A model generated the notes under the pieces. The model had not been told where the DNA came from, searched no databases, and saw nothing but the letters and a program-made list of their open reading frames with translations. The translations under genes were made by a program, and so were the position numbers. DNA of 64,000 bases from Rickettsiales bacterium. GTDB lineage: Bacteria; Pseudomonadota; Alphaproteobacteria; Rickettsiales; SXRF01. The DNA lies in the NCBI GenBank assembly GCA_025464625.1, contig JAOAUZ010000002.1, positions 1-64,000 on the forward strand. Direction: 5' to 3'. This document shows positions 23,715 through 30,844 of this stretch, piece by piece; position 1 is the stretch's first letter, and every line of letters starts with the position of its first letter.

Positions 23715-24068
23715 CTAACAACAAGCTGGTTTTGTTTTTTTCTTAGTCTTAGCTACTGGCGCGCAATCAGATTTTTTATCCTGTTCACGCAGGCAGCAAT
23801 TTTCAACCAGAAAACCAACTAGATTCTCAATGGTATCAACATTAGCTGTGTAAATGATAGAGCGACCTTTGCGCTTAGATTTTACCAAGCCTGCCTGATG
23901 CATGTGCGATAGATGAAAAGATAGGGTGTTATGCGGAACACCAAGTTGCTCCCCCAAAGACCCAGCCGCACATCCCTCTCTTCCGTATTGTATCAACAGA
24001 CGAAATAATTGCAGACGAGTTTCCTGTGATAGAGCAGAAAAGGCTATAAGCGCGTGGTTAATATCCAT
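23715..24068 (-). CDS. ArsR-family metalloregulator with C-terminal cysteine cluster
   Basis: The 117-residue winged-helix repressor has the ArsR pattern ALSQETRLQLFRLL, then VPHNTLSFHLSHMHQAGLV as the recognition helix and GRSIIY as the wing. It lacks the E. coli-type CVCDL motif, having only Cys33 in the helix before. It has Cys91-Cys92 and Cys102 near the C-terminus, close to the arrangement of the Acidithiobacillus-type arsenite sensor, and ends in a further Cys pair (116-117). Arsenite derepression is therefore likely. The gene is divergent from a PstS-like gene, and its start is 14 bp from the -35 box of the facing promoter, so it probably controls that promoter. Confidence 0.9.
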   Translation of the reverse strand: MDINHALIAFSALSQETRLQLFRLLIQYGREGCAAGSLGEQLGVPHNTLSFHLSHMHQAGLVKSKRKGRSIIYTANVDTIENLVGFLVENCCLREQDKKSDCAPVAKTKKKTKPACC

Positions 24069-24081
24069 ATGTCTATAATAA

Positions 24082-24110
24082 TTGACATGATTACAAGTTC
24101 AAGTTATACG
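24082..24110 (+). promoter_or_regulatory. Near-consensus sigma-70 promoter for the pstS-porin genes
   Basis: TTGACA at 24082-24087 is an exact -35 consensus. TATACG at 24105-24110 follows after 17 bp and matches four of six -10 positions. It reads rightwards, leaving a leader of about 200 nt before the pstS start at 24316. It lies just upstream of the arsR start codon on the other strand. Confidence 0.6.
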
Positions 24111-24114
24111 AACT
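24096..24114. promoter_or_regulatory. Candidate ArsR operator overlapping the promoter
   Basis: AGTTC and GAACT form an inverted repeat with a 9-bp spacer. It covers the promoter spacer and the -10 box of the facing pstS promoter. Short, spaced dyads like this are usual ArsR/SmtB targets, and bound repressor would block RNA polymerase. The link to the adjacent regulator is inferred from position. Confidence 0.45.
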
Positions 24115-24315
24115 ATATGCTAACCAGAATTTATGGTCAAGGATTGTAGTGTATATGAAATATTTTCTAATGACTTGTGCATTAAACACATAGCTCCCAT
24201 GCCAAAAAAACTTTTGTATAAAACATAGCCTGAGCTTACACAGCCAATAAAAAATATTTCAACAACCATTGACATTATGATTTTTTATTCAATTTCTAAA
24301 AACAAAGGAGTGCTT

Positions 24316-25353
24316 ATGCCACGTTTATCATCTTCCCGAATGATTGTTCTTGCAACACTTACCACAACTTCATTGATGACATCTGCTCCAGCTTTCGCCC
24401 GCGACCAGATTCGCGCTGTTGGCTCGTCCACAGTTTATCCATTTGCCTCCGCAGCGGCTGAACAATTCGGTCAAGGCGGTAAATTCAAAACACCAATTGT
24501 TGAATCAACAGGTACTGGCGGTGGTTTCAAATTATTCTGTGGTGGAATCGGTGCCGATACTCCAGATATTAGTAATGCTTCACGCCCGATTACCGATTCA
24601 GAAAAAGAGACCTGCCAAAAAAATGGTGTAACCAAAGTTGTTGAGGTTCCGATTGGTTATGATGGTATCGTCATTGCCAATGCCAAAGGTGCTGCTGGGT
24701 TCAATTTAACCAAAAAACAAATATTCATGGCACTGGCTCGCCAAACACCTGATAAGGACGGTAAACTCGTAGCAAATAGCTACCAGAAATGGAATGAAAT
24801 CGACCCTAAATTACCAGCACAGACCATCGATGTTTACGGACCTCCTCCAACATCTGGAACTCGTGACGCATTCGTTGAACTAGCTATGGAAGAAGGATGC
24901 AAAGCATTTCCAGAATTTGCCAAAGCATATCCTGATGAAAAGGAGCGTAAAAAATCTTGTGGGCTGATTAGGGAAGATGGTCGCTATATCGATGCTGGTG
25001 AAGATGACAATATGATTGTCCAAAAATTGGTTAGTAATAAAACTGCTCTTGGTATTTTTGGTTATAGTTTCTTGGAAGAAAATAAAAGCAAGGTTCAGGG
25101 AAGCAAAGTTGATGGTGTTGAGCCGACTATGGAAAATATCGAAAGCGATAAATACAAGCTTTCGCGCAGCCTTTATATTTATGTAAAAGGTGATCATATT
25201 GGTAAAATCGCTGGTATATCTGAATTTGCGAATGAAATTGTTAGCGAAGGTGCAATCGGTGCGGACGGCTACTTAACAGCTAAAGGCTTGCTACCACTAC
25301 ATGATAAAGATAAAAAACTGGCTCGTGAACGTGCTGCATCTTTGAAGAAATAA
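24316..25353 (+). CDS. PstS-like phosphate/oxyanion ABC transporter substrate-binding protein
   Basis: The 345-residue protein starts at the ATG preceded by AAAGGAG; the upstream frame from 24277 is not family sequence. The signal peptide ends at APAFA. The mature protein opens with IRAVGSSTVYPFASAAAEQF, the PstS phosphate-loop signature. It continues with VESTGTGGGFKLFCGG, DISNASRPI and PPTSGTRDAFVELAM, which line the anion site. It delivers phosphate to a PstCAB permease that is not in this window. Position after an arsenite-type ArsR and before a polyanion porin suggests control by arsenic as well as or instead of phosphate starvation. Confidence 0.92.
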   Translation: MPRLSSSRMIVLATLTTTSLMTSAPAFARDQIRAVGSSTVYPFASAAAEQFGQGGKFKTPIVESTGTGGGFKLFCGGIGADTPDISNASRPITDSEKETCQKNGVTKVVEVPIGYDGIVIANAKGAAGFNLTKKQIFMALARQTPDKDGKLVANSYQKWNEIDPKLPAQTIDVYGPPPTSGTRDAFVELAMEEGCKAFPEFAKAYPDEKERKKSCGLIREDGRYIDAGEDDNMIVQKLVSNKTALGIFGYSFLEENKSKVQGSKVDGVEPTMENIESDKYKLSRSLYIYVKGDHIGKIAGISEFANEIVSEGAIGADGYLTAKGLLPLHDKDKKLARERAASLKK

Positions 25354-25377
25354 TTCAAAAACCGAAAGGCTTTCAAA

Positions 25378-26757
25378 ATGAAAAAACTACTTCTTACTGG
25401 AACTGCTTTAATCGCTGTATTAACCTCTGGGCAAGCATTTGCGCAGGATGATGAAGCTATGATGAAACAGCTCAAGGCTATGCAAGCGCAAATGGAATCC
25501 ATGCAGCGCGAAATGAATAAGCTCAAAGAGCAACTGGCACAAAATAAAGCACAAACAGCAAAAGTAGAAAAAGTCACGAACGAAATCAAAGCTCCAAAAG
25601 CACCAGAAAATGACGTGAAAATCAGCATGGTTCCTGCACCAAAAATTGAAACTGCTGATGGCGCATATAGCTTCAAAGTTGGCGGGTTTGCACAAATAGA
25701 CGCTGGTATGTTCAAAGACGACATAAGGGATCGCCCCGATGGCACTAATGTTCGTCGCGCTAGGTTAAATTTTTCTGGTACTCTTGCCAAAGATTTCAAA
25801 TATAAAATTGAAAATGATTTTGCTGGCAACGTCAGTGCGCTTACCGATGTTTATTTGGAATATGCTGGTCTAAAGCCAACTTCTATTACTGTCGGACAAT
25901 TCAAAGAACCGTTCGGTTTGGAAACTCTAACCAGCGATTTATTTACCAGCTTTGTTGAGCGTTCATCAACCAACCTTTTCTCACCAGACCGCAAAATCGG
26001 GGTGATGGTTAGCACTTATGGGGAAACAGCACCAATTGGCTTTTGGACAGCTTCTCTCGGTGGTTTCGGTAGCGGAACAAGCAGCACCAGCAGCACGGAT
26101 GACGAAGCACGCGATATCACTGGTCGTATAACTCTCGCTCCAATCGCCGAAAAAACTAGGATAATTCATTTTGGTGTTGCTGGCAGCCACCGCATCCCTG
26201 ATTCTTCTGCTGATTCATTTAGCTTTTCTTCACGCGCAGAAAATCAAATGTCCAGTTCATCTGCGGATCTTTCGGTCAATACTGGGACTATCAGCAATGT
26301 TAGCAGCGTAAATCTTCTCGGGCTTGAAGCCGCTGGGGTTTATGGACCATTTTCGTTGCAGGGTGAATATGTACGCGCTGCTGTAAACCGCAATTCTGGC
26401 GTTGAACCAACATTTGGCGGTTATTATGTTGAGGCTTCATATTTCTTAACTGGTGAAAGCCGTAACTATAACGCATCATCTGGTAGGTTTGACCGCGTTA
26501 AGCCAATCTGGCCACTGAGCGTCTCTGAAGGTGGTTGGGGTTCTTGGCAGGTTATGGCTCGTTATAGCAATCTGGATTTGAACGATAAAACAATAAATGG
26601 CGGGCAACTGCGCGATACGACTTTAGGTATAAAATGGTTGCCAAACAGCTACACCATGATTACCGCTAACTATATCATGTCAAATAGCGACAGCCACTCT
26701 GTAACCCCGAATGATGACCCGCAAATATTCTTGCTACGCACCCAATTTGATTTTTAG
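25378..26757 (+). CDS. Outer-membrane porin of the OprP/OprO type
   Basis: The 459-residue protein has a signal peptide (KKLLLTGTALIAVLTSGQAFA) and then a helical coiled coil (about 25-65, MKQLKAMQAQMESMQREMNKL), which is typical of trimeric phosphate-selective porins. A beta barrel follows with GGFAQIDAGMF, RRARLNFSGTLAKDFKYK and VTVGQFKEPFGLE-like strands (TSITVGQFKEPFGLE is the family hallmark), ending in a terminal Phe (QFDF). Only 24 bp separate it from pstS, so the two share a transcript. It would admit phosphate or arsenate-like anions into the periplasm for PstS. Confidence 0.92.
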   Translation: MKKLLLTGTALIAVLTSGQAFAQDDEAMMKQLKAMQAQMESMQREMNKLKEQLAQNKAQTAKVEKVTNEIKAPKAPENDVKISMVPAPKIETADGAYSFKVGGFAQIDAGMFKDDIRDRPDGTNVRRARLNFSGTLAKDFKYKIENDFAGNVSALTDVYLEYAGLKPTSITVGQFKEPFGLETLTSDLFTSFVERSSTNLFSPDRKIGVMVSTYGETAPIGFWTASLGGFGSGTSSTSSTDDEARDITGRITLAPIAEKTRIIHFGVAGSHRIPDSSADSFSFSSRAENQMSSSSADLSVNTGTISNVSSVNLLGLEAAGVYGPFSLQGEYVRAAVNRNSGVEPTFGGYYVEASYFLTGESRNYNASSGRFDRVKPIWPLSVSEGGWGSWQVMARYSNLDLNDKTINGGQLRDTTLGIKWLPNSYTMITANYIMSNSDSHSVTPNDDPQIFLLRTQFDF

Positions 26758-26930: not shown

Positions 26931-29663
26931 GTGTCTAAAAAAGATAAAAATAAGGGCAAATTACAATCTATTAAGTTTGCTTTCTCCGTTGGACTGCTAA
27001 CATTTTTAGCAGTACTTGCCAGCAGCTATGTACTTTATGCCTACGCATTGAAAGCTATAGAAGAAGATATAGAAGAGTATTTGAGTGGTATTGCTGGTGC
27101 TGTTTCCAAACAGATTGATGGTGACATTCATACAAAATTCACTTCTCGCGATCAGGAAACTTCTCCAGAATATTTGGAACAAGTTGCAAAGTTAAATAGC
27201 ATAAAGGGTGTGTTCCCCGATGTTAGTTATGTATATACCTTTGTCTTAAAAGATGGGGATGTATATTTTATACTCGACCCTACACCAGCAGGAATAATCG
27301 AGGACGGCGTAGAAACCAAATCCCACATCATGGATAAATATGATGAAGCAAAAGAACAACCTCCACTTATGGAGGCATTTAATACCCAACAAAAATCCTT
27401 CAATAAAGAGCCTTATACTGACCGCTGGGGGAGCTTTGTTTCAGCCTACACACCGCTTTTTAGTAGCAAAGGAGATTTTGTAGGGGTTGCTGGAGTTGAT
27501 ATTGATGCAAAAGACTATGCCGCTAAAATAGAAAGGATAGAACATGCGGAAATGCTTTGTATCCTAATAGGTTTTGTTATCTCCAGCCTCACTGGATATT
27601 TAATCTATAAAAAAAATATGAAAATAAGTGCCATAACTAAAAATCTAGAAAAAAGCGAACAGCGTTTTGCTCTTGTTATTGAAGGTATGAACGATGGCAT
27701 TTGGGATTGGGAGGATATGACCAAAGATGAAGAATATTGGTCACCTCAATTCAAAAAACTTCTTGGTTATGAGGATAATGAAATAAAAGCAAGCTATCAG
27801 GAATTTCAATCCCGCCTTCATCCAGATGATGTGGATAGAATCAAGCAGGAAATGGAAGAGCATTTCGAGCGTAATGCTCCATTCAACTCAGAATGTCGCC
27901 TGCGAAAAAAATCTGGAGAATATTGCTGGTTCCGTGCCAAAGCAACCACGGTGCGTGATGCTAATAATAAACCAATAAGGATGGTTGGCTCTATTCGCGA
28001 TATTACCCAACGCAAAGCTGGTGAGGAAAAACTCCGCGAATATGCCCATCAGATGGAAGAAAAAAACCAAGAATTAGCCATAGCCAAAGAGCAGGCGGAA
28101 CAAGCCAACAATATGAAGTCGGAATTTCTTGCTAATATGAGCCATGAAATCCGTACTCCAATGAATGCTGTTATCGGTATGACCAGCATGTTGCTGGAAT
28201 CAGATATGTCACCAGAGCAAAGACAAAAACTAAATATAATCCATAGTTCTGGTGAGGCATTGCTAGAAATTATCAATGATATTCTTGACATTTCTAAAAT
28301 TGAAGCTGGCAAAATGGAGCTGGAGCCTCTGCCGTTTAATCTGCAAAATGCTCTAGTGGAAATCACAGAAATGTTTACACCGCGCTGTAAGGGCAAGGGT
28401 ATAAAAATGCTGATGCAGTATGTTTCGGGAACTCCAGAATGGGTTATGGGTGACGCGGGACGAATACGTCAAATCATTACCAACCTAGTAAGCAACGCCA
28501 TTAAGTTCACTGATTCAGGTCAGGTGATGGTTAGCGTAAAGCCTACCTCTGTTAGCTCAGAAAATGTTTCTCTGTATTTTGAGATAACTGATACTGGGAT
28601 CGGGATTCCTGAAAAAGTACAGAAAAAATTATTCCAAAAATTTAGCCAAGGCGATTCATCAACCACCCGAAAATATGGCGGAACAGGCTTGGGTCTTGCG
28701 ATATGTTTCCGTCTGGTAGCATTGATGGGTGGAAAAATCGGTGTAAAAAGCAAAGAAAATAAGGGTAGCACTTTCTGGTTTACATTAGACCTGCCACTCG
28801 CAGATGCAGAAATAGAAGAAGATATACTATCATATAATACAGACTTCAATCCAACTGGCGCATATATTCTCGTTGCTGAAGATAACCAGATCAACCAGAT
28901 AATGATAAAGCAAATGCTGGATATGCTCGGATGCAAATCAGATATCGCAGTAAACGGCAAAGAAGCTATAGAAATGGTGCGCCAGAATAAATACGATTTA
29001 GTGCTAATGGATTGCATGATGCCAGAAATGAGCGGATACGAAGCGACAGAAGCAATTCGTAAAATGAAGGATGATAAAAACAACACCATAATAATTGCAC
29101 TCACCGCTAACGCCCTGCAAGGTGACAAACAAAAATGTTTAGACTGTGGAATGAGTGATTACCTAAGCAAGCCAATTAAAAGACTAGAATTGCAAGCCAT
29201 GCTCGCCAAATGGTTGCAGAACAACTTTAAATCTGAGCAACTTCCCAAGCAGCCAAAAAGTGTTTCGCAAAAAAAATCAAAAGAGATTAAATACACTCCT
29301 GAATTATCAAATATTCTGGAAGTGGAGATTTTAAATTCTTTTCTGCAAATTGTTGGTAAGGAGGCTGCAACAATACTAAACAAGCATTGTACCGTAGCAA
29401 AAGATTATATAACCACAATGCAGAATGCACTGGCTGAAAAAGACTATATAACTATGTCAAATACAGCCCACCCCCTTAAATCCTCAAGCCAATATATAGG
29501 GGCAACCGATATAGCAAAACTAGCGTCCAAAATTGAGGAAATGGGGAAAACATCAATGCCCGATGAAGTGGAACTGCAAGATTTGGTTAATCAGATTGAA
29601 TATAAACAAAATTTAGTCGAGCAAGTTATAAATCAAAACTTTACTGTAAGGAAAAGCGCATGA
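26931..29663 (+). CDS. Hybrid sensor histidine kinase with periplasmic sensor (Cache-PAS-HisKA-HATPase-REC-HPt)
   Basis: The 910-residue protein has TM1 (about 13-37), a ~165-residue periplasmic domain of Cache-like pattern (VYTFVLKDGDVYFILDP, GVAGVDIDA) and TM2 (206-227). A PAS/PAC domain (240-365), a coiled coil, and HisKA with His405 (NMSHEIRTP) follow. Next come HATPase (SNAIKF, DTGIGIP, GTGLGL), a receiver with Asp694 (LMDCMMP) and an HPt with His847 in AHPLKSSS. It starts at GTG with a weak ribosome binding site. The stop overlaps the start of the phosphatase-type response regulator by 4 bp, so the pair is translated together and the HPt probably phosphorylates that regulator. Confidence 0.93.
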   Translation: MSKKDKNKGKLQSIKFAFSVGLLTFLAVLASSYVLYAYALKAIEEDIEEYLSGIAGAVSKQIDGDIHTKFTSRDQETSPEYLEQVAKLNSIKGVFPDVSYVYTFVLKDGDVYFILDPTPAGIIEDGVETKSHIMDKYDEAKEQPPLMEAFNTQQKSFNKEPYTDRWGSFVSAYTPLFSSKGDFVGVAGVDIDAKDYAAKIERIEHAEMLCILIGFVISSLTGYLIYKKNMKISAITKNLEKSEQRFALVIEGMNDGIWDWEDMTKDEEYWSPQFKKLLGYEDNEIKASYQEFQSRLHPDDVDRIKQEMEEHFERNAPFNSECRLRKKSGEYCWFRAKATTVRDANNKPIRMVGSIRDITQRKAGEEKLREYAHQMEEKNQELAIAKEQAEQANNMKSEFLANMSHEIRTPMNAVIGMTSMLLESDMSPEQRQKLNIIHSSGEALLEIINDILDISKIEAGKMELEPLPFNLQNALVEITEMFTPRCKGKGIKMLMQYVSGTPEWVMGDAGRIRQIITNLVSNAIKFTDSGQVMVSVKPTSVSSENVSLYFEITDTGIGIPEKVQKKLFQKFSQGDSSTTRKYGGTGLGLAICFRLVALMGGKIGVKSKENKGSTFWFTLDLPLADAEIEEDILSYNTDFNPTGAYILVAEDNQINQIMIKQMLDMLGCKSDIAVNGKEAIEMVRQNKYDLVLMDCMMPEMSGYEATEAIRKMKDDKNNTIIIALTANALQGDKQKCLDCGMSDYLSKPIKRLELQAMLAKWLQNNFKSEQLPKQPKSVSQKKSKEIKYTPELSNILEVEILNSFLQIVGKEAATILNKHCTVAKDYITTMQNALAEKDYITMSNTAHPLKSSSQYIGATDIAKLASKIEEMGKTSMPDEVELQDLVNQIEYKQNLVEQVINQNFTVRKSA

Positions 29664-30844
29664 GTACTGTAAAAAAAGATATACTTAATTCTCGTATTCT
29701 AATTATAGAAGATGACTATCTCGGTCGTAACGTGCTGAAAGAAATTTTTAAAAAGAAAGGCTTTACCAATATTGAAGAGGCAGAAAACGGCAAAGCAGGA
29801 TTAGTAAAAGTGCGTTCTTTCCGCCCAGACCTCGTGATACTAGATGTTATTATGCCAGAAATGGATGGGGTGGAATGCTGTAAAATAATCAGAAAAGATC
29901 CAGATGTAAGGCTGTCTAATATTCCCATTTTATTTCAAACATCGCTTGGCGGAATAGCAGATAAAGCACGTTTCTTCGAAGCAGGGGCGACTGATTATCT
30001 CTGCAAACCGATAGATCCATATGAAATCACTGCCCGTGCCATAGTACATCTGGAACGAGAAGTTATGAATAGGCATTTGCGTGAGTTTAAAGTGCGTGTG
30101 TCTCATGAGCTTAACACCGCGCGCAACACCCAGCAGATATTGATTCCTGATGATAATGAAATTCAGGAAATGGAAAAATATTATAATCTGCAAATCTGTG
30201 GTTATTATCAGCCATGTTCAGAACTCGGCGGAGATTTCTGGGGCTTCAAGAGCCTATCCAACGAAGAGATTGCCATGTTCATGGTCGATTTTTCTGGTCA
30301 TGGGGTAAATGCGGCACTTAATGTTTTCCGCCTACACGCTCTTATGCAGGCAACAATGAGTACGGCAAAAACACCAGGGGCATATCTGACCCACCTGAAC
30401 GCTATTCTTGCACCATTACTTCCCACTGGGCAATTCGCCACCATGTTCTACGGAATAATAAACAGTAAAAAGAAAACCTTTGCATACGCTTCGGCATCAG
30501 CACCGCCACCTGCATTATTCCGTAAACATGGTAGAACCCATCAAATGCTCGAAAGCACTGGAACTGTTCTTGGAGCATTCAAAGAAACTACCTATCAAAC
30601 TGTTGAAACTGAATTTGATCTGGGCGATTGCCTGCTGCTCTATAGTGATGCGCTGATAGAAACGCCTAATGAAAAGGGCGATATGCTCCCTATCGAACAT
30701 TGGACAGAAGCATTTCAAACCCGCCTTAAAGTGGATGGCGATGGCTGCCGTGAATCTTTTGCCTCATTACTGGCGAATTTCAGGCGGCATTGTGCTTCAC
30801 AAATGATAGATGACTTATCGTTAAATGCGTATTACATGCACTGA
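29660..30844 (+). CDS. Response regulator with PP2C/SpoIIE-type phosphatase output
   Basis: The 394-residue protein has a receiver domain (about 10-135: IIEDDY, phospho-acceptor Asp62 in LDVIMPEMDG, Lys in CKPID), a helical linker, and a PPM-type phosphatase domain (about 185-390). The phosphatase domain shows CSELGGDFWGF, FMVDFSGHGVNAALNVFR and LLLYSDALIETPN, holding the Asp/Gly metal ligands. This is the RsbU/RssB-like design: phosphorylation switches a Ser/Thr phosphatase that normally acts on a STAS-domain antagonist. No STAS or anti-sigma gene is adjacent. A STAS protein is encoded at the head of the chemotaxis operon (61537-61848), so a link is possible but unproven. Confidence 0.92.
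   Translation: MSTVKKDILNSRILIIEDDYLGRNVLKEIFKKKGFTNIEEAENGKAGLVKVRSFRPDLVILDVIMPEMDGVECCKIIRKDPDVRLSNIPILFQTSLGGIADKARFFEAGATDYLCKPIDPYEITARAIVHLEREVMNRHLREFKVRVSHELNTARNTQQILIPDDNEIQEMEKYYNLQICGYYQPCSELGGDFWGFKSLSNEEIAMFMVDFSGHGVNAALNVFRLHALMQATMSTAKTPGAYLTHLNAILAPLLPTGQFATMFYGIINSKKKTFAYASASAPPPALFRKHGRTHQMLESTGTVLGAFKETTYQTVETEFDLGDCLLLYSDALIETPNEKGDMLPIEHWTEAFQTRLKVDGDGCRESFASLLANFRRHCASQMIDDLSLNAYYMH

Follow-up and report, generated by a model that had tools for sequence, protein, structure and literature searches.

Phosphate and arsenate share transporters, and how a cell exposed to arsenic might take up more phosphate and yet avoid poisoning itself is therefore an open physiological question. 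The closest described case is that of Agrobacterium tumefaciens 5A where, according to excerpts of the original study, arsenite (As(III)) and the repressor ArsR1 control pstS1: As(III) induces pstS1-C-A-B and raised pstS1 about 9- to 14-fold, deletion of arsR1 raised pstS1 too, and gel shifts located two ArsR1 sites in the pstS1-phoB1 intergenic region, for which these excerpts report no match to a 12-2-12 inverted-repeat model (PMC7965956). The work is summarised in passages of PMC3834237 and PMC7533571, and the former also describes arsenic islands that carry pst/phn genes. Here we examine a comparable locus in a 64,000-nucleotide stretch of a Rickettsiales genome (hereafter the window: positions 1-64000 of contig C5, from a genome of 1.9 Mb in 7 contigs that is listed as 100% complete), in which a gene for an ArsR-type repressor faces pstS and a phosphate-type porin gene. 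The best explanation of the whole, to which we assign a probability of about 0.62, is that an ArsR released by arsenite would act at a predicted 20-bp operator, O1, and perhaps at a weaker site, O2, to co-control arsR, arsC and the pstS-porin pair. The sequence indicates the type of protein, the conservation of the operator, its presence before arsC as well and the recurrence of the ArsR-pst link; from these we infer that the window pstS is under direct ArsR control.

The locus, its regulator and a predicted operator

An earlier note, made from the DNA letters, had described an ArsR facing PstS and an OprP-like porin with no arsB, arsC or acr3 alongside. Open reading frames (ORFs) and family profiles bear this layout out, and neither the window ORFs nor the annotation place an ars gene next to arsR. 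The features of the locus are as follows:

23715-24068, minus strand: arsR, an ArsR/SmtB repressor of 117 amino acids (ORF and family profiles)
24069-24088, no strand assigned: O1, predicted ArsR operator ATGTCTATAATAATTGACAT, a 20-bp palindrome (relatives' matrix and shuffles)
24075-24102, minus strand: arsR promoter-like site, -35 TTGAAC at 24102-24097 and -10 TATTAT at 24080-24075 (promoter-pattern scan)
24082-24110, plus strand: promoter-like site drawn in the earlier note, facing pstS, TTGACA-N17-TATACG (matched by 7.5% of intergenic shuffles)
24096-24114, no strand assigned: AGTTC-N9-GAACT, the operator proposed by the earlier note (exact, judged a chance repeat)
24256-24275, no strand assigned: O2, weak operator-like site ATTTCAACAACCATTGACAT (10.0 bits on the matrix, a score reached by 11 of 1000 shuffles)
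24316-25353, plus strand: pstS, phosphate-binding protein (PF12849, 156.2 bits; cut-off 27)
25378-26757, plus strand: Porin_O_P (OprP/OprO-type) porin (PF07396, 212 bits; cut-off 20.9)

The regulator and pstS diverge across 247 bp, a ribosome-binding-like AAAGGAG precedes the pstS ATG at 24316, and the porin gene begins 24 bp past pstS. The encoded PstS matches the phosphate-binding protein of PDB 9jwy (E 3.1e-88) and scores 152.2 on NCBI's TIGR02136, under the cut-off of 206.6, and the porin, a putatively phosphate-selective one, matches Porin O and Porin P in the PDB (E about 1e-55). For neither gene was a second copy found: the window pstS is the one PF12849 gene found in the readable genome, and the window porin the one Porin_O_P gene in the genome search. 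The single PstB above its family cut-off in the readable genome belongs to a pstC-pstA-pstB array elsewhere, which lacks a pstS and is preceded by a gene for a PAS-HisKA sensor kinase. One PhoB (330.7 bits) exceeds its cut-off, one ArsR of the window kind is found at E <= 1e-5, and the ArsC query has one match, far from the window arsR. A giant protein apparently encoded behind arsC was rejected, the very long open frame stemming from unreadable letters.

The window ArsR matches the HTH_20 and HTH_5 profiles and scores 62.9 on NF033788 (cut-off 55). Its translation carries Cys91, Cys92 and Cys102, the arsenite-sensor arrangement that the earlier note had read from it, and these cysteines align with those of its best relative in the PDB, 6J05 (E 2.4e-19), the third across a four-residue gap. 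This structure is that of AfArsR, with Cys95, Cys96 and Cys102 according to excerpts of PMC8470949. It is also the top fold match (E 6.7e-07) of a structure model of the window protein built from five sequences (mean pLDDT 76), in which Cys91-Cys92 close the last helix (residues 77-92) and Cys102 follows ten residues further on, its placement left undefined by the low confidence of residues 97-117. Among 67 ArsR loci of the class (high-scoring matches among those listed rather than a random sample, with the window's own locus, G577 and G378 counted apart), ars genes lie nearby in 54, pstS in one and neither in 12. Together these features support an arsenite-type (type 2, AfArsR-like) assignment for the regulator.

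The predicted operator O1 directly precedes the arsR start codon. In 12 loci from ars-linked and pst-linked relatives, the 20 bases in this position are palindromic at 5-8 of 10 half-positions, against 0-6 at ten other offsets. With a matrix built from the arsR upstream sites of 12 relatives, the window left out, O1 is the top site of the entire 64 kb (22.7 bits; the runner-up scores 12.5), and none of 1000 shuffled intergenic regions reached its score. Outside the training set, 62 of the 67 class loci could be used, having an arsR start preceded by 150 bp or more of sequence; the locus-best site fell within 150 bp upstream of arsR in 45 of these, mostly at exactly -20, and 17 do not fit. The -10 of the arsR promoter-like site lies inside O1, and this position relative to the operator is the one point in favour of that site, the scan having returned 5 promoter-like sites where 8.1 were expected.

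The motif recurs in the genome at one other telling place. Its pattern fits the window site with no mismatch on either strand and positions 168461-168480 of contig C6 with one mismatch on both, the latter lying 33-52 bp upstream of arsC with a matrix score of 17.9. Because the genome has further sites near 18 bits (18.2 at C6:593959, inside a coding frame, and 18.2 at C6:385715, both chance-like), the strength of the predicted arsC site is not unique; it is its position before arsC that is telling. The bare number of pattern matches was rejected as evidence, with 113 at up to two mismatches compared with 100 for a reversed control. The site at C6:385715 belongs to an overlapping operator-like pair (18.2 and 15.9 bits) at 385707-385734 of contig C6 (2208-2235 of L273), which lies between genes for a pilin-like protein and a Fur-like regulator and may be a further ArsR target or a product of chance.

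The ArsR-pst link among relatives

An ArsR gene adjoins pstS in 11 distinct alphaproteobacterial loci. In five the two diverge and a porin gene follows pstS, namely in the window, in L038 of the same genus and in L039, L040 and L081, from other families of the same order. In five others the genes run in one direction: arsR-arsC-pstS-porin-pstC-pstA-pstB with intergenic gaps of at most 42 bp in L142, arsR-pstS-porin-pstC-pstA in L190 (a Micavibrio metagenome-assembled genome), arsR-pstS-pstC-pstA-pstB in L187 and L195, and a porin gene between arsR and pstS-pstC-pstA in L157; L305 has arsR-pstS. Duplicate contigs (L184 with L081, L183 with L078) were counted once, and L091 and L193, whose weak ArsR-like gene does not adjoin pstS, were not counted. 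Within the order, 64 pstS neighbourhoods were annotated, less than half of those listed and all from genomes with a PstS match, among the matches listed; 5 of them show the adjacency. So do 4 of 80 pstS loci taken from named genomes (L081 again among the four), 2 of the 40 porin loci examined in the class and one of the 67 ArsR loci. The layout is that of a minority, yet in our judgement random placement would come nowhere near producing it. The earlier note's association of ArsR with phosphate uptake is real and recurrent, even though its operator and promoter do not stand as drawn.

Predicted operators also precede pstS where no intact arsR adjoins it. Across 1,251,931 positions, mostly around pstS, scanned with a matrix trained on neither member of the genus, every site of at least 17 bits precedes arsR or pstS. 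Besides O1 of the window, these are the sites before arsR in three members of the training set (L187, L190 and L195) and sites in L078 (identical to L183) and L205. In the last two the operator stands at -87 and -134 of pstS, respectively, with no intact arsR beside the gene. At 3864-3952 of L205 the operator is followed immediately and in frame by about 22 codons resembling the start of an ArsR and then a stop, ahead of pstS-porin-pstC-pstA; the resemblance has an E of 4e-4 in a small comparison, and 1 of 30 shuffles matched its score. This stretch is probably a decayed arsR whose operator has been kept. Within the window, O2 lies 41-60 bp upstream of the pstS start, and L038 likewise has a second operator-like site, its score reached by 7 of 1000 shuffles.

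In the ArsR tree, which rests on few alignment columns and has many open forks, the pst label needs 7 changes, at least 2 of them required by well-supported branches. Because of these repeated changes the ArsR-pst link is likely to have arisen several times, by a number that is unsure.

Some neighbourhoods of related regulators are recorded here in their own right. In L027 (1465-1869, genome G045) an ArsR sharing 82% identity with the pst-linked ArsR of L081 faces, on visual reading, a gene for a DsbA-like thioredoxin-fold protein rather than pstS. In L009 (1501-2204) a cysteine-containing membrane protein of 118 amino acids, MerT-like by eye, comes after a CC-type ArsR that shares the operator, which suggests the same type of regulator at a mercury-like gene. 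Two relatives encode a protein of 151-170 amino acids between arsR and arsC (L002 1845-2300, L005 1791-2303). Past the porin of the window itself, 26931-30844 hold a GTG-started hybrid sensor kinase gene (PAS, HisKA, receiver and Hpt domains) and then a receiver-SpoIIE phosphatase gene.

A proposed mechanism and its competitors

In the scheme we favour, an ArsR dimer would bind O1, covering both the -10 of arsR and the -35 of a putative promoter facing pstS, and perhaps more weakly O2 before pstS. Arsenite in the cytoplasm, for instance from reduction of arsenate by ArsC, would bind Cys91, Cys92 and Cys102 and release the repressor, so that arsR, the distant arsC and pstS with its porin would be derepressed together. 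Together with pstCAB, whose genes lie elsewhere, this would add high-affinity, phosphate-selective uptake and allow phosphate to go on entering while arsenate competes. Arsenic, alongside phosphate shortage, would in this way contribute to setting phosphate uptake; the earlier note had proposed that arsenic raises phosphate scavenging, perhaps to outcompete arsenate, an idea already published for A. tumefaciens 5A. Binding, arsenite as the ligand, repression of pstS and the benefit are what we infer here. A benefit through phosphate selectivity is plausible, a Pst1-like protein being cited in a passage of PMC3834237 as discriminating phosphate from arsenate 500-850-fold. In GFAJ-1, excerpts of PMC5930303 report a pst operon within the arsenic island and arsenic resistance unchanged on deletion of either pst operon, which argues against a simple protective role of pst.

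Further observations weigh against this scheme. Two other genomes of the same genus (G002 and G003) and G008 have pstS with no adjacent ArsR; support in the ArsR tree is low and the pst-linked proteins do not form one clade. O2 is weak, and sites of at least 8.3 bits occur before 4 of 114 pstS genes that lack an adjacent ArsR, two of these being L078 and L205. Acr3 and aquaglyceroporin queries found no match in the genome, where absence of an exporter is unproven because a stretch near arsC is unreadable and ArsB was not searched for.

One competitor limits repression by ArsR to its own gene, via O1, and to arsC in trans, while pstS and the porin answer to a nearer promoter of their own, PhoB-driven or constitutive, the layout carrying no regulatory meaning. 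O1 does occupy the usual position of an autorepressor site and stands 228 bp away from the start of pstS, two points that also count against the scheme we favour; in addition, the genome encodes PhoB and a sensor kinase ahead of pstCAB. Such an account leaves unexplained the 11 adjacencies, of which several are co-directional and look like a single transcription unit, the operators before pstS in L078 and L205, and an O2-type site in two species. Nor does a Pho box rise above chance before the window pstS: the search, which the earlier note had suggested, gave a best match of 9/14 against 9.05 in shuffles. This silence is weak, because the same test reached 12-13/14 in only 11 of 123 pstS genes. 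We regard this competitor as unlikely, if still to be taken seriously. A different cue is also conceivable, be it another thiol-reactive one (methylarsenite, antimonite, or a sulfur or redox species) or, in cysteine-poor relatives, a phosphate-related signal, with arsenite not the main input. The cysteine pair is missing from the pst-linked ArsRs in L039 and L040, and the third cysteine from the one in L038; likewise L015, the sole ArsR found in G022 at E <= 1e-5, is without the pair although the pstS of that genome bears the operator motif. The losses in L038, L039, L040 and L015 also weigh against the scheme we favour. On the other side, the window protein keeps all three cysteines and shares its predicted operator with arsC, the pair persists in 8 of 10 pst-linked ArsRs compared and also in L305, and most class relatives (the 54 of 67) sit beside ars genes; a main cue other than arsenite is quite improbable for this regulator.

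The arrangement drawn in the earlier note, with ArsR acting through AGTTC-N9-GAACT overlapping TTGACA-N17-TATACG, is hardly credible. Its letters are all present (TTGACA at 24082-24087, TATACG at 24105-24110), and the -35 falls inside the right half of the better-supported O1. As a promoter the pair is unsupported, the shuffle figure listed above counting any TTGACA with a -10 of at least 4/6. L038 reads, by eye, TAGAAA-N17-TATAAA at this position, so that a promoter there is possible. The proposed operator fares worse and was rejected: 50% of the shuffled versions of the 60-bp stretch around it contain a 5-bp inverted repeat with a spacer of 4-11, the proposed repeat is changed in L038, and it is unlike the operator found at the 45 of 62 independent loci. 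The scheme of arsenite-released ArsR at O1 could also be pressed further. In this bolder form, the genome's only high-affinity phosphate-binding protein and its porin would have moved from phosphate-starvation control to an arsenic repressor, arsenite would be a main input to uptake, and Alphaproteobacteria would have brought pst genes under the control of ArsR on several occasions, with the operator surviving as a relic where arsR has since decayed, as in L205. We consider that extension speculative and rather unlikely.

With a defined predicted operator, a compact arsR/pstS-porin locus and relatives with and without arsR, the link between ArsR and phosphate becomes testable beyond Agrobacterium and the arsenite oxidisers. 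Furthermore, the palindrome supplies a matrix with which ArsR targets could be listed across the Alphaproteobacteria.

Relation to described systems

The regulator is of a familiar kind. It shares with AfArsR the fold, a vicinal cysteine pair closing the last helix and a third cysteine downstream, the spacing being CC-x9-C in the window and CC-x5-C in AfArsR, and the window protein has no attached ars operon. The same ArsR family heads alphaproteobacterial arsR-arsC-aquaporin operons in L006, L008, L286 and plasmid L279, with the operator of the first three in the same position as O1; there it commands its own resistance genes, whereas the arsC of the window genome is far away. Plasmid arsenic islands of Pseudorhizobium NT-26, Ensifer and Phyllobacterium encode PstS proteins about 50% identical to that of the window and, like the window, cluster arsenic and phosphate genes. 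On these plasmids pstSCAB-phoU-phoB is accompanied by aio or arsK genes, and the annotated neighbourhood includes no porin, whereas the window pstS has neither aio nor arsK beside it.

The nearest parallel is the ArsR1-pst1/pho1 system of strain 5A, in which an ArsR-family gene is likewise tied to a high-affinity phosphate system, the window being known from its sequence only. In 5A, pst1 is a second, arsenic-island copy beside the phosphate-stress pst2, whereas the window genome yields a single pstS and one PstB over the cut-off. In the window arsR itself faces pstS, a porin follows and pstCAB lies elsewhere. The operator predicted here, a 20-bp palindrome, adjoins the start of arsR, in contrast to the 5A sites between pstS1 and phoB1, and against those two intergenic sites the window offers a strong O1 and a weak O2, both predicted. 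A literature search for arsR, oprP, pstS and operon returned no publication joining all four, and searches on pstSCAB with arsR, or on an ArsR inverted repeat in Rhizobium, turned up no closer case than 5A. That an ArsR controls a pst operon has already been published for this strain; as far as these searches show, what is new within the literature covered is the involvement of the only pstS found in a genome, the porin partner, the 20-bp predicted operator held in common with arsC, and the arsR-arsC-pstS-porin-pstCAB array.

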